Assembly: GCA_949751835.1 (NCBI GenBank)
Contig: CATKHK010000072.1
Location: forward strand, 62,001 to 126,000
Direction: 5' to 3'
From: Blepharisma japonicum
Taxonomy: Eukaryota; Ciliophora; Heterotrichea; Heterotrichida; Blepharismidae
Length of the DNA stretch: 64,000 bases
The position numbers were made by a program, and so were the translations under genes. The notes beneath the pieces were generated by a model. The model made no database searches. It was given only the letters and a program-made list of their open reading frames with translations, and was not told the DNA's origin. Below, piece after piece: positions 21,894 to 42,306 of this stretch (within the stretch, counting starts at the first letter, position 1; every line of letters starts with the position of its first letter).

Positions 21894-22445
21894 TTAAAGC
21901 AATCTTAGCTTTCCTGTGACTGCATCAATTTTAGATACAGTCTCTGGTCCTATTGCACAGACAGTAGTTGTGCCGGGCTCAACTTGAGTTCTGCCAGCAT
22001 CTTTGATGATGGCTGTGTTAATCCCAGCTGCCTTAGCTTTTTCTGAGTATTCTAATAATTCTTCTAAGCTATCTACCTTTAAGACAATTTTAGCATCGCC
22101 TGAATAGTCCCAGCGTTCTACTAATCGTGGATCTGAAGTTCTATATGCATGAACACATGCATGGGCTACTTGTGCTGCAATTTTTCCTATTCCCATACCT
22201 AGATCTGTTCTTACTAAAGCGACCATCTTGTATCTTTCTTCATTAAAAATATTACTGAAAAGGCCGTTGTCTTTTGGTTGAATTTTATTTTCTGCCAATT
22301 GGGGAGGTTCTTCTATGCATCCCGAACTTAAAAGCTCTAAAGCTGTTTCCGCGTTGTTTTCACTGACTTGAAGAGCTTGTAAAACTTGTGCTTGAGAGTA
22401 TCCTAAACTTATAAGTGTTGCAACTACTTCAGGATTGGGTTCCAT
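21894..22445 (-). CDS. PTRH2: Peptidyl-tRNA hydrolase 2 with N-terminal UBA domain
   Basis: 183 residues. PTH2 releases tRNA from peptidyl-tRNA that drops off ribosomes. Residues 1-45 are a UBA ubiquitin-binding domain (VATLISLGYSQAQVLQALQV). The catalytic PTH2 fold begins at about 73 with YKMVALVRTDLGMGIGKIAA and continues QVAHACVHAY, SLEELLEYSEKAKAAGI, IKDAGRTQVEPGTTT and the terminal AIGPETVSKIDAVTGKLRLL. The GMGIGK and DAGRTQ segments are the family signatures. The UBA-PTH2 order is known in other eukaryotes. Unlike animal PTRH2 there is no N-terminal mitochondrial TM anchor, so a cytosolic location is likely. Confidence 0.96.
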   Translation of the reverse strand: MEPNPEVVATLISLGYSQAQVLQALQVSENNAETALELLSSGCIEEPPQLAENKIQPKDNGLFSNIFNEERYKMVALVRTDLGMGIGKIAAQVAHACVHAYRTSDPRLVERWDYSGDAKIVLKVDSLEELLEYSEKAKAAGINTAIIKDAGRTQVEPGTTTVCAIGPETVSKIDAVTGKLRLL

Positions 22446-22727
22446 ACTTTTGATTAATGTGCAAATTATGCTTCAGCAAATTTGGATTATATTAACAAAA
22501 AAAAGTCTGTAGTAGCAATGAGAATTTTCGATTAACTATTATTAAGGTGTTCTTACATGAAAGCAAGAATTTATTAAAAATAATAATATTTTATCAATCA
22601 GATCCCAAAAATGAAATTAATTAGGATTGTTTTTCAGATATTTATATGAATTTTCGCAAGAGATTCCTTGTAAATAAAAAAAGATGCAAAGATTTAGAAA
22701 ATATCATTATTTGAATTTATTGATAAA

Positions 22728-37200: not shown

Positions 37201-37411
37201 ATATCAAAGTGACTATCAAGAAGAGTATGAAGAGGAAGAAGAGCAAAAATCTGAACGCTCAAGTGTTGTATATAAAAGCTCAGAAGGTAGTGAATACGAG
37301 AGGGAAGAGGAAGAAGAAGAAAATTATGAGGAAAATCCAAATGATAGCTCAAATTATGAAAGTGGTTATGAGTCTGAAGATAGAGGGAAAAGACTGAACA
37401 GATCAAGATAA
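34298..37411 (+). CDS. Large coiled-coil/EF-hand-like protein (1 intron)
   Basis: Exons are 34298-34314 and 34330-37411 (1,032 residues). The first exon holds only MSYPQ plus two bases of the next codon; a 15-nt intron (phase 2) joins it to the body. UGA-Trp codons are at 35117-35119 and 36230-36232. Residues about 75-360 are coiled coil. Between 375 and 850 are several EF-hand-like helical pairs, most with incomplete calcium loops (KIHDDNNEGMITIDQFKEAL, ECDKKGLISPDQLLRGL). The C-terminal 180 residues are Ser- and Glu-rich, with a polyacidic block. The design recalls centrin-like or ciliary scaffold proteins, but no orthologue can be named. Confidence 0.85.
34315..34329 (+). other. Spliceosomal intron, 15 nt
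   Basis: GTAACCTTCATTCAG, phase 2, TAA created at once if retained. The only acceptor here ending CAG. Confidence 0.92.
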
Positions 37412-37532
37412 TGAATTTTGTTTAACTTAAAGGTCAATTGTTAGATAATCTTTCTTATGGTCTTTAAATTTTTCATGATTACTATGAAGAAATTTCTAAA
37501 TTATCCTTTTAATTATTTTACAAGAAGACAGC

Positions 37533-37970
37533 ATGGAAAAACCTAGAAAACGACCATTTCAACTGGATGGACCTTTACATATGACAAAACTTCCAGAATA
37601 TAATGGTCTAAAAGATCCAAATCTAGGACACTTTTTTGCATCCCCTCTACGGTTTAAAACACTGGTTAAGCAAAACCTTGTAAAATTAACATAGATCAAT
37701 AATCAAGGAGTAATAAATGATAGTGTTTGTAAATCAAGGATTATTTGTACTCCAATAAGAAGGAGAAGTAAAGATCAGAACTCAACACTTAGCAAGCCTT
37801 ATACTTTGCAGCCAACCAAAAAATGATTTAAGAAAATTGATATGAAATTTCCAAAAATTACTTCAAAAGAGCTAAGAGAAGTAATTAATCGGCATCGAAA
37901 AGAAGTTAAATTTCAAGAAAAATCAATAAGTGGCAATGAGGGATTAAGAACAAGCAGTAGCTTTACATAA
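37533..37970 (+). CDS. Short basic protein, unknown (1 intron)
   Basis: Exons are 37533-37679 and 37695-37970 (140 residues), easily missed because each piece is short. The first exon encodes MEKPRKRPFQLDGPLHMTKL and ends DPNLGHFFASPLRFKTLVKQ. A 15-nt intron in phase 0 and a UGA-Trp (TKKWFKKID) follow. The protein is strongly basic, without TM segments. The first-exon pattern (DPNL-x-HFF-x-SP-x-R) looks conserved-protein-like and recalls small ciliary microtubule-associated proteins, but I cannot name the family. Exon lengths sum to 141 codons including TAA. Confidence 0.75.
37680..37694 (+). other. Spliceosomal intron, 15 nt
   Basis: GTAAAATTAACATAG, phase 0, in-frame TAG. The sequence is identical to the intron at 63531-63545 in an unrelated gene. 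Confidence 0.9.
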
Positions 37971-38418
37971 ATTTGTTTTATTTAGAATATGAGGATATTT
38001 AATTGCAAGCCCTTTAAATGAGCAAAACCTTTGAAATTAATAAATTTATATATTATTACATTATTTATAGTTTTGAATGAAAATTAGTATATATTTAAAA
38101 ATAGTTTATCATTTATTAACAATTAAAAAATTTATTAAAAACAATAATTAAATAATTTTCTTTTATCCTGACTCATAGCATAATTTTAAAATTAATTGTA
38201 TTCTTTTCTATCTAAAAAATATACGAACTATAAATTAAATAATTTTCTTTTTATTCAACTCATATCATAACTTTAAAATTAATTTGATTCTTTTTATCTA
38301 AGCTTCAATATAAATATAATTTATTTGGAGATGAAATTATTTTAAATTAAAATAATTTTTTTCTTTTCAAATTGCAAGTCTGGGCTTCCTATATATTTTC
38401 CTGATTATAATAATCAGT
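37971..38418. other. Convergent intergenic region with a duplicated segment
   Basis: 450 bp, about 80% A+T. It contains a 70-bp element repeated with an 87-bp period (listed separately) and a run of A/T-only sequence. No gene seen. Confidence 0.6.
38146..38301. repeat. Imperfect tandem repeat, about 70 bp x 2
   Basis: Copies at 38146-38215 and 38233-38301 both run from AATTAAATAATTTTCTTTT through an ACTCATA-C/T-CATAA core to TATCTAA, with scattered differences. Non-coding, between two 3' ends. Confidence 0.75.
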
Positions 38419-39141
38419 TTACATAGGGATCCATCCCATAGCCATATAAAACCTCATCATTTCTTCCATAATTTCTCCTTGGCTTTTTTCTCCATTTACG
38501 ATTTCATTCGCCTTCTGAGATACAACTTTTTCTTTATGAGGTGTATAATTATAAAGTTCCTGAGCTGCGTAATCATAATAAACAAACCATAAATCAGAAT
38601 CTGGCTTACATTTTTTGACTAGCTCACACTGGCCATAATTATTAAACCAGCTTTGAAATTGCTCAACAAAAAACTGGCGAGAAAAAAGATAATCTTTATA
38701 TTTTTTCCCATATGATAGAAACTTATTCCCTTTATCAGGCTTTCCATTTCCTCCTAAGTGGTCAAGCCAAAAAGTTTTTTCTTCATCAGTTAAAGATGAC
38801 TCAATGTTTGGATAGTTAAATTTCATATAACTTCTAAAAGCACGAAGCCAATATTTATCTTTTTCCTCAGTTTTTTTCTTAATTGGGTCATAAGGGCGAA
38901 GCGGTCTTCTTCCTCGCTTTTTTTTTGTTTTTTGAGCATAAGGGGAAGACTGAGATTCAGCTTCTGGATTGGAAACAAAGTTATGGTTGAGGTCAAATAA
39001 ATTTGAGTTTGGATCAACGGAAGAGTAGCTAGGCCAGTTTAGTCAAGCATTATCAGGAAGCATTATGCTTTTATAATCAATGCTTTGGTCTTGATTCATA
39101 GAGACTGGAGTCTCTATGTGGTCAGTATTTTCATGTTTCAT
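38419..39141 (-). CDS. Basic-motif (AT-hook-like) protein, unknown
   Basis: 240 residues, one UGA-Trp in DNAWLNWPSYSS. The ATG at 39139-39141 is the first in frame. Residues about 75-90 (KTKKKRGRRPLRPYDP) resemble an AT-hook, a minor-groove DNA-binding motif with an RGRRP core. A Trp/Tyr/Phe-rich helical region follows (DKYWLRAFRSYMKFNYPNIE, KFLSYGKKYKDYLFSRQFFV). The end is acidic with MEEMMRFYMAMGWIPM. This would suit a nuclear protein with a DNA-binding hook and a folded C-terminal domain, but no family is recognised. Stop TAA. A 22-bp palindrome lies in its 5' coding part. Confidence 0.72.
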
Positions 39142-39399
39142 ATTGAATTGATGCTGTATTAATTGTAAATAGCACTACAAATTATAAGTCTGCAAGAATC
39201 TATATTTAGCTATTTTTTATTAGTTCTGCTGTGTATATTTTATAGTATCATTCTTTATTGAATAAAGACTTAAAACTGAATTAATATTGCAAAAGTATTA
39301 ATTGAGCATATTTTGGCTTGCCTAAACTCTATACAATTATACATAATAATATAACTGTTAAATTAATCATCAAACGTATTCTTTGCAGCTTATCCCCAC

Positions 39400-40152
39400 T
39401 TATTCTTCAATATCTACAATTTTATCAATATCTTGTTTAGTCCTTTTCATTTTATTTTTGAAATTCTCTTGCTTTTTCTTCCTCATATAATAACTTTTCT
39501 GTTCTTCTGTCAATACTACCTTAAAAGACTGTATATCCCCAATTGGTCTTCCATTCTCATCATAAACACACATTACGCCCTCAGACAAATTTTTCGAAAG
39601 TTTGTCGAAATTCAGTCCGATGCACACAATATCTTTTTGCTGCTGATGAAACTTAAGTGCATAGTTTCTGCCTTCAATTTGATAGAGAGCTTCATATGCA
39701 GATTTACCAAGCTTTATTTCTATTAGACAAACAAAACGATCCGTTTTGACTGTTATGTCAATTCGACCGCCACTTGTGGACTCTTCAGCTTCGCAGTTTT
39801 GGAATAAGTCGCACAGTTTTGCGTATAGTAGAGAGTGAAAGTACTTTTCTTGGAGATCAATGAGGCTGTAGGGAAAACTAGCAAAATAAATTTGAATATT
39901 TCAGCAGAAGGCTTTTAAATCATAAGTTTTTAGAGCTTCTTTCATATCAGGATTGTCAAGCCTAGATGGCTCTGGCAGAGCACGCTCTTGTTGTTGAAGT
40001 TGAGGTTTTGGCTTAGGGAGAGAGTTAGCTGCTTCATAGTTTGATAACAATTTATCAAGAGCTCGTTTGAAATCATTATGGTAACTTAAAGCTTCTATTG
40101 CTTTTTCTTTTGCAAAACCCATGCAAATTAGTCTTGCGAGATTAGATTTCAT
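39400..40152 (-). CDS. UBA domain fused to PD-(D/E)XK nuclease-like domain (PDDEXK_9/DUF1703 type)
   Basis: 250 residues; UGA-Trp at 39901-39903. Residues 1-38 are a UBA ubiquitin-binding domain (LARLICMGFAKEKAIEALSY, FKRALDKLLS). After a Pro/Gln linker, from about residue 92, comes EKYFHSLLYAKLCDLFQNCE, then EESTSGGRIDITVKTDRFVC, LIEIKLGKSAYEALYQIEGR and YALKFHQQQKDIVCIGLNFD. This is the core of the PD-(D/E)XK domain that ends bacterial DUF1703/AAA-ATPase-like proteins: GRID-x(n)-E-I-K with the expected catalytic Asp, Glu and Lys, and the Q-I-x-x-x-x-Y helix. UBA with this nuclease fold is a combination I do not know from any characterised protein. The catalytic residues appear intact; the substrate is unknown. 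Confidence 0.8.
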
Positions 40153-41265
40153 TATTTTATTAGTTTTATTGGAAAAATTTAAAGTTTATGCAAAAATAAT
40201 TATCATGGAGTTAAGCCCCTAATAAAAAATATAAACTTAAAATGTGATCTGTAAAAATAAACTAGAGCTAGATTTTTTAATATTTATGAATCAGGCAGGA
40301 AGGCTGTCTATAAAAACTCTTGAAAAGTGCTGAATAAATTTTATATAACAAATCAAAAAGATAAGACGATATTATGACGTTTGCCCTATTTAAACTAAGT
40401 CGATGCAATAGCTCTAGTTATTAGAATATCATAAATTGATAGGTTTCTTATCTCGTGTTTTAAAAGGTGAGATGCTTTCAGCAATCAACTCGAGTGTATT
40501 TTTAAAGACAGAATTGCACAAAATATATGCTTAATAGTTGAATTTTGATTTTAGATATCAAGAATGAAGAGAATCGAATTGAAAATTAAATAATTAGACT
40601 GAATAAGATAAAATCCTTTGGCAATAATTATTCTGGTTGATATACTGCTTTACCACAGCGAATATTATTGTAGATAAGCTATATCTTTTGCTCTCAATTG
40701 TGATTAAGCTATATCTCTTGCTATCAATTGTGACTAAGCTAAATAAATGATTTAAAATTTAAATATTGGCTGTAAAAGAAAGGGTTACTTTTATAGAGCA
40801 TTACTATAAAAAATCGAGAATAATTTCTATCTTATTTAAAAGGCATTCTGCATGCAGATAAAGATTATGTAATCTAATGACATATTATATTAATATGTAA
40901 ATTAACTTGCTAAGTTTCAAATAAGAAAAGATTAAAAATTGTCGATATTTTTGAGTAATCTCATATAATTGAGCAGTTTTATTAAATGAAGATAAAGACA
41001 AGATACTAAGCCAATTTATATATATTTCTTAAGGGATAGGGAAATTTTATTAGTGCAAATCCATTCTCTATTAAATATAATTAACTTTACTCGAACCTTT
41101 AATTCCAAGCATAAACTCCAAAAATACAGATCTATAATAGTAAAATAAATATAATTCCAAATCCATCATTAATTCTATATGCACTTCTCAAAACTATTTT
41201 TACTAGTTAAACCTCTTAACATACTTTATCCTTTTAAACTGTAATCTTTAAAATTATAGTAATAA
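40153..41265. other. Longest intergenic region of the window
   Basis: 1.1 kb between the divergent UBA-nuclease gene (minus) and a coiled-coil gene (plus). No open frame of note on either strand. It contains a 30-bp direct repeat at 40676-40741. It also has a slightly GC-richer patch at about 40290-40500 with a short hairpin (ATCTC...GAGAT near 40450-40474) that could be a small RNA, without further support. Confidence 0.5.
40676..40741. repeat. 30-bp direct tandem repeat
   Basis: Two copies of AAGCTATATCTYTTGCTMTC-AATTGTGAYT and the first six bases of a third. Each copy differs from the next at three or four positions. Non-coding. Confidence 0.8.
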
Positions 41266-42306
41266 ATGAAAAGATCAGATACCTCAAACTCGATCATGAT
41301 GCTGAAGCACAAATTCGACGAAATTAAACAAAATATCTGCAACATCGAAGAACGCCAGCGAGAATTTTTTACTAAATCCCCACACCATATTGTTGAAGAT
41401 TTATCAAGCTCACAGTTAGACCCACAGTTGGGATCATTAAGGTCACGAACGCTGGAAGCCACTATAAAACAATATGAAAGACCTGCAAGTGCAGCACGTT
41501 ATGGAGAAACAAGTAATGATCGTCTAAAAGAATTGGAAAATAGCAACAAACATCTCATGAGAATGATAAAAACTCTTGAGCAAAATAAAGAAGAGCTTTT
41601 GGATAAAGTTGACTCTCTCCAAAAGGAAAACGACAAATTAAAGGATGAATTGGTCTTGAAAAACTCAAAAATTACTGTGCTAACAAATGAAAATCAACTG
41701 TTAAAAAGTAGAGTTGAGACTAATGAAAAAAGAAATCAATCTCCGATGAGAGCATGAGAAGCTGATAACAGTGAAACAAGAAAATGCAACTCAGAAGTCA
41801 AAGCAAGACCACCTTTGGGAGTTAGACAATGCAACTCAGAAGTCAAAGAAAGGCCATCATCCTGCATGAGAAGTGGGCCATCACCTAAAAAACAAAGGGT
41901 TGCTTTTTCTAAAGATCTTGTAAAAATCGTACACATTGATGGAGATGAATGCCCAAGAAGCATTGAAAAATTAAAAAATAATGAAATAGTTGCTTCTCAT
42001 GTAAGCTACCAAAATCCATATTCTAGGTATTCTAGTCCTGGAAGACTTGATGAGCAATTTAATTCAACGACTCCAGTCGAAAAAACAAACATTGATTATA
42101 CTTTCAATGGATCTGCCAAGAAATATGCATCTGATTCTTATGATAAATCTTATGGACGAGAATCATACAAGCCAGTTTATACCAGCTTGCAGGATAAAAG
42201 AGCATTGTTCAATAAACTGAACTCTGAAGAATACGATCAGCACTTCTCTGAGTATTACCGAGAAAGGTCAAGAATAATTGCACAGAAAATGATTGAAATG
42301 GATTAA
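41266..42306 (+). CDS. Coiled-coil protein, unknown
   Basis: 346 residues, UGA-Trp at 41755-41757. Residues about 85-160 are coiled coil (LKELENSNKHLMRMIKTLEQ and onward). Just after it a 45-nt unit encoding KCNSEVKxRP is repeated (21 identical nt at 41783-41803 and 41828-41848). The C-terminal half is Ser/Tyr-rich (NPYSRYSSPGRLDEQFNSTT; SYDKSYGRESYKPVYTSLQD) and ends in a charged helix EYYRERSRIIAQKMIEMD. No membrane or catalytic signature. Probably a cytoskeletal or ciliary component; stop TAA. Confidence 0.8.

Follow-up and report, generated by a model that had tools for sequence, protein, structure and literature searches.

What does a short open reading frame (ORF) of the ciliate Blepharisma japonicum encode, when its sequence joins a bacterial-type nuclease to what looks like a ubiquitin-binding domain? 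The frame lies at 39400..40152 on the minus strand of a 64,000-nucleotide stretch of DNA, here called the window (positions 62001-126000 of contig CATKHK010000072.1, C72, in an assembly of 45.2 Mb and 224 contigs). An initial annotation had read its product as a ubiquitin-associated (UBA) domain fused to a PD-(D/E)XK nuclease of the PDDEXK_9 (DUF1703) family. We suggest that the gene, termed the UBA-nuclease, is a ciliate gene for a PDDEXK_9 nuclease that has no ATPase, carries a UBA-like domain and a basic tail, and would be recruited by ubiquitin; taken as a whole, we consider this reading moderately probable. Its domains as identified by sequence, its intact active-site motifs and a chain without an ATPase are directly established. 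The features of the gene are as follows.

39400..40152, minus strand: whole gene, UBA + PDDEXK_9 protein of 250 amino acids, translation code 4 (TGA = Trp)
40039..40149, minus strand: UBA-like domain, residues 2-38, with M-G-F loop (11-13) and L-L (35-36), from profiles and hhalign
39949..40038, minus strand: linker rich in proline and glutamine, residues 39-68, from sequence and model
39532..39948, minus strand: nuclease region, residues 69-207, by homology to the C-terminus of bacterial AAA-ATPase_like/PDDEXK_9 proteins
39901..39903, minus strand: in-frame TGA, Trp84, read from the ORF translation
39586..39852, minus strand: PF08011 (PDDEXK_9), residues 101-189, Pfam match
39847..39849, minus strand: E102, motif I, invariant in the 44-row alignment
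39757..39759, minus strand: D132 of GRID, motif II, invariant in the same alignment
39712..39720, minus strand: E145-I-K147, motif III, E145 and K147 invariant in the same alignment
39679..39681, minus strand: Q158, motif IV, invariant in the same alignment
39406..39507, minus strand: basic C-terminal helix, residues 216-249, from sequence and model, absent from the bacterial rows shown

The match to PDDEXK_9 (PF08011) scores 57.1 bits (E 2e-15), clearly exceeding the curated cut-off of 25.5, which bears out the proposed family membership. The motifs pointed out in the initial annotation, GRIDITV, LIEIKLG and the Q-I-x4-Y helix, are all present. Residues E102, D132, E145-K147 and Q158 occupy the positions of motifs I-IV of DUF1703 (E, D, ExK and Q) as set out in a passage of PMC1913061; here and below, citations refer to excerpts of the papers named. 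Of 52 homologous stretches extracted, nine were dropped for internal stops or near-identity, and the other 43 were aligned with the protein. Eleven columns of the resulting 44 rows are invariant, including these five catalytic residues. In the full-length AlphaFold model the nuclease part consists of helix 102-116, strands 119-126, 129-136 and 140-148, helix 152-161, (helix 164-171), and strands 174-183 and 188-197, after which comes a further strand, 203-211. Judging from its sequence, the protein is most likely a metal-dependent PD-(D/E)XK nuclease of the PDDEXK_9 family.

It is also the sole PF08011 match above cut-off in a search of the genome, where no clear paralogue was found, and the gene thus appears from sequence to be the only one of its kind there. 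Several weaker matches were discarded. A second PDDEXK_9 match, on contig C16, scores 18.6 bits and contains an internal stop; because it reaches only 0.2 bits with a nine-member family profile, which includes the UBA-nuclease itself, we attribute it to chance, as we do a match on contig C25 (E 0.127), a 97-amino-acid frame antisense to a longer ORF. For the protein itself, NCBIfam YraN (16.5 bits, cut-off 111) and the Pfam families SET_assoc and DUF5496, both under their cut-offs, were set aside. Neither VRR_NUC nor a UBZ zinc finger is among the four Pfam matches listed for it up to E 1.

The N-terminus was compared with UBA domains of the same genome, in which UBA exceeds the Pfam cut-off at 40 other sites (two of them only jointly with in-frame neighbours). 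A profile built from 30 of these stretches gives the protein 21.3 bits, with 20.0 bits assigned to the domain and a single-protein E of 9.7e-9, whereas shuffling the N-terminus 50,000 times gave at best 12.1 bits. Comparison by hhalign with 18 of the 30 stretches gives 96.2% (E 2.1e-9), against 0.1% for the nuclease region and 0.8% for the C-terminal tail as controls. At the sequence level, the similarity to UBA domains thus appears to go beyond chance, as the initial annotation had proposed, and we regard the assignment of the N-terminus as a UBA as likely. Its M-G-F loop and L-L pair are at positions that we take to have a role in ubiquitin binding. In the full-length model residues 2-10 and 15-42 are helical, and the predicted local distance difference test (pLDDT) averages 58-71 per block. 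For the linker, block means are 46-60 over residues 41-70, and residues 51-58 fall below 50. The C-terminal helix presumably resembles a possible bipartite nuclear localisation signal.

The gene has an ATG start, 250 codons and a TAA stop, and an intron is unnecessary. Its frame stays open solely when TGA is read as tryptophan; one TGA lies inside it, and genes of the window likewise read through in-frame TGA as tryptophan. The G+C content at third codon positions is 0.29, compared with 0.25-0.37 in six ORFs nearby, and the overall GC content of the window is 32.3%. Three-unit matches to the Blepharisma telomere repeat CCCTAACA occur in the assembly 77 times forward and 91 times in reverse, with none for the reversed control; the sites listed are clustered as runs, many near the low coordinates of their contigs. 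Eukaryotic genes identified by Pfam on the same contig encode an arrestin-domain protein, a 14-3-3 protein and a fusion of UBA with the peptidyl-tRNA hydrolase PTH2. The use of TGA as tryptophan, the telomere repeat and these neighbours indicate that the UBA-nuclease is a real ciliate gene and not contamination. Blepharisma stoltei is described as having the same TGA code, the same telomere repeat and tiny introns (excerpt of PMC9942806), and a genome of 41 Mbp with a GC content of 33.5% (excerpt of PMC9942856). Its published final assembly comprises 64 telomere-to-telomere sequences.

The relatives that were found are bacterial or come from phage and viral collections, in line with the earlier description of a bacterial-type nuclease. 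In plasmids, tblastn reached E 1 or better for 23 records and 1e-5 or better for 22 of these; the best was Simkania negevensis pSn (33%, 6e-15). In phage collections 10 records matched, nine of them with E no higher than 1e-3. Scanning genome contigs yielded 121 relatives, and the best 80 were kept. In one further phylum (that of genome G001), 1 of 301 genomes matched at E 1e-6, namely the starting genome itself. Among viral contigs, the UBA-nuclease sequence alone found no relative and a scan with A2 found one. PHROGs gave no match up to E 1, and three matches among predicted viral structures (E ≤ 0.001) all had TM-scores below 0.3. Plasmids searched with the UBA stretch alone gave nothing at E 10 or below; for a query this short such a search is insensitive.

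Bacterial proteins of this family combine an AAA-ATPase_like module (PF09820) with PDDEXK_9 (PF08011). In all four bacterial proteins scanned PF09820 is N-terminal and PF08011 C-terminal, and 100 of 110 domain-bearing ORFs, bacterial or viral, are at least 450 amino acids long. The UBA-nuclease resembles these proteins over 123 profile positions, with 26-41% identity in the alignments made and the same E, D, ExK and Q motifs. Unlike them, it is without the ATPase module and the middle region and has an added UBA-like domain, linker and basic tail. PF09820 has no match in it, and it therefore departs from the full-length DUF1703 architecture. We infer that the nuclease came from a bacterial gene. 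A tree of 32 rows (the UBA-nuclease and 31 non-redundant proteins drawn from the 100 ORFs of at least 450 amino acids) fixes neither donor nor direction: the UBA-nuclease sits on a branch of 2.22 that joins another long branch, its letter make-up is odd and its position is not settled. The sample is skewed to Bacteroidota because the scan pattern leaned likewise. Thus, of the earlier proposal that a transferred nuclease gained a ubiquitin adaptor, the bacterial relatives and the UBA-like domain ahead of the nuclease agree with it, whereas the phylogeny suggested as a check on bacterial origin leaves the transfer itself without a donor.

Searching the genome with PF09820 detected two sites, on contigs C34 and C83.

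C34:83739-84299, plus strand: relative L125/L127, ATPase-only, 439 amino acids, PF09820 119 bits
C83:123484-123693, minus strand: relative L126/L128, divergent, with ATPase-like and nuclease-like halves

In the C34 protein PF08011 is not matched at E 0.1 or below, and DNFD stands at the Walker-B place, where an excerpt of PMC1913061 gives DEYD for DUF1703. Its N-terminal extension of about 30 residues gives the impression, and only that, of a mitochondrial targeting sequence. The C83 protein has a long N-terminal extension followed by the start of an ATPase module, an interruption, which may be a short intron whose ends are not fixed, and a second part. We compared the proteins with a profile of 523 positions built from 30 bacterial or viral proteins. 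The second part of C83 aligns to positions 128-493, nuclease region included, although PF08011 does not match the protein at E 0.1 or below and the nuclease profile on its own gives it 4.8 bits. On the same profile C34 spans positions 7-387 and the UBA-nuclease 396-518, so that the two are complementary halves. One gene may have been split, two copies may each have undergone a loss, or the two halves may have arrived separately. A tree built from the ATPase portion (C34 and C83 with 30 other rows; one row longer than 620 amino acids dropped) cannot show a common donor because the branches of C34 (8.1) and C83 (10) are so long. Since the C34 branch of 8.1 compares with 2.2 for the nuclease, the trees give no support for a joint history, and this unequal divergence speaks against a simple recent split.

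How might such a protein act? Having kept a complete active site, the nuclease half would most likely cut DNA. The UBA would most likely tether it to a ubiquitinated protein, probably in a nucleus, and ubiquitin, instead of an ATPase, would set the site of action. Its target might be nuclear, developmental or foreign DNA; the initial annotation suggested a part in DNA elimination or defence. VRR nucleases are part of the PD-(D/E)XK superfamily. FAN1, which combines UBZ with SAP or HIRAN and a VRR nuclease, is likewise a single chain with both ubiquitin-binding and nuclease domains. It differs in having a zinc finger rather than a UBA, a nuclease of another family and an additional DNA-binding domain, and the likeness is one of analogy, not of whole-protein homology. 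By this analogy, the UBA-nuclease would most likely be a ubiquitin-recruited nuclease that works like FAN1 and yet is not FAN1. We know of no UBA in Wolbachia CifB (CidB/CinB). CifB also differs from the UBA-nuclease in that it is a bacterial toxin of large size and has a partner, CifA; its nucleases are stated to cut DNA in an excerpt of PMC12445526. In a more elaborate scenario, a bacterial ATPase-nuclease was taken in and split, the ATPase and middle region becoming the C34 protein and the nuclease gaining a UBA and a nuclear tail. With ubiquitin in place of the ATPase as its guide, it would be a domesticated nuclease acting on marked chromatin, for example while the new macronucleus develops; we think this improbable.

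Several observations weigh against a ubiquitin-recruited, ATPase-less nuclease. The Pfam UBA match (PF00627, residues 3-33) has 15.4 bits (E 0.017) and does not reach the cut-off of 22.4, nor does the site in a six-frame search of the genome (18.4 bits, E 0.127). UBA matches under cut-off are also seen in 7 of 14 control genomes. An AlphaFold model of the first 44 residues, built with one other UBA row and with no known UBA run alongside as a control, is a single helix with a pLDDT of 89, and the full-length model, too, has one helix over residues 15-42. Such results would fit a helical extension of the N-terminal 40 residues that resembles a UBA by chance, on a stand-alone PDDEXK_9 nuclease. 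The distance between the protein and its best shuffle, the hhalign result with controls below 1% and the presence of the M-G-F loop and L-L positions argue otherwise, and we consider a chance likeness unlikely. Chains without the ATPase have also been seen elsewhere: 9 of the 110 domain-bearing ORFs are shorter than 350 amino acids, although some may be broken or contig-end fragments, and one Cardinium is reported with two nuclease-only and six ATPase-only genes, possibly scaffold-end artefacts (excerpt of PMC6387759). The same excerpt describes considerable core differences between the nucleases of cytoplasmic incompatibility (CI) toxins such as CifB and those of DUF1703.

Even a genuine UBA need not aim the nuclease. 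In many shuttle and turnover proteins the domain acts in stability or delivery to the proteasome, and here it could do the same or be a remnant. The UBA-PTH2 gene in the same window, for which DNA targeting is unexpected, is consistent with such a role, whereas FAN1, the known pairing of ubiquitin binding with a nuclease, is recruited through its UBZ domain, which interacts with monoubiquitinated FANCD2 (excerpt of PMC4402529). We judge this explanation rather unlikely, if somewhat less so than a chance likeness. The whole gene might instead be a decaying or selfish remnant without a cellular role, its nuclease domain having arrived with a mobile bacterial ATPase-nuclease gene. Family members do occur on plasmids and in symbionts, one lies in the Tribolium Medea element (excerpt of PMC6387759), and the C34 relative is strongly diverged, with an altered Walker-B. 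The nuclease ORF, however, is intact and keeps all five catalytic-motif residues, and the repeats seen in 37500-41266 are short or AT-rich, none of them being long and of terminal type. We find this explanation quite improbable, and prefer a ubiquitin-recruited nuclease.

The surroundings of the gene were inspected for further features. Downstream lies one ORF:

38419-39135, minus strand: adjoining ORF of 238 amino acids, no Pfam family matching at E 1 or below

Its protein contains a stretch, KKRGRRPLRPYDP, which we take to be AT-hook-like. Further downstream, at 38127-38294, are two direct repeats of 81 nucleotides each, 77% alike, with starts 87 nucleotides apart. The opposite side holds an ORF whose matches are limited to weak coiled-coil ones, the arrestin-domain gene and the 14-3-3 gene. 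Upstream, no likely gene lies in 40153-41265, a gap of about 1.1 kb that is long for a gene-dense genome with short intergenic regions, as that of Blepharisma stoltei is described (excerpt of PMC9942806). No Rfam family exceeds its gathering score in 37400-41300, and no tRNA was predicted anywhere in the window by ARAGORN under the bacterial code. The UBA-PTH2 fusion, at 21897-22448 on the minus strand (PF01981 140 bits, UBA 36 bits), resembles the UBA-nuclease in having an N-terminal UBA on a short enzyme, and differs in that the enzyme is a peptidyl-tRNA hydrolase; it is a known architecture.

Neither component of our proposal is new by itself. DUF1703 occurs in intracellular symbionts and its role is called unclear, and the Tribolium Medea case already provides a DUF1703 gene of bacterial origin in a eukaryote (both from an excerpt of PMC6387759); for a nuclease aimed by ubiquitin, FAN1 is the precedent. 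The pairing of UBA with PDDEXK_9 did not emerge from literature searches aimed at it or at PDDEXK in ciliates, which covered open-access papers; no eukaryotic protein collection was searched. If correct, the UBA-nuclease would be a second, independent route, beside FAN1, for aiming a nuclease by ubiquitin. A stand-alone eukaryotic DUF1703 protein with a ubiquitin-binding-like adaptor would also be a simple case, in which activity and targeting are separable. In Blepharisma stoltei, 39,799 internal eliminated sequences, that is, about 40,000 DNA segments, are removed during development (excerpt of PMC9942856), and a published developmental expression series for this species is mentioned in PMC9942806. 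In a ciliate that removes so many segments, a new nuclease such as this one is also a candidate to look for in that series.
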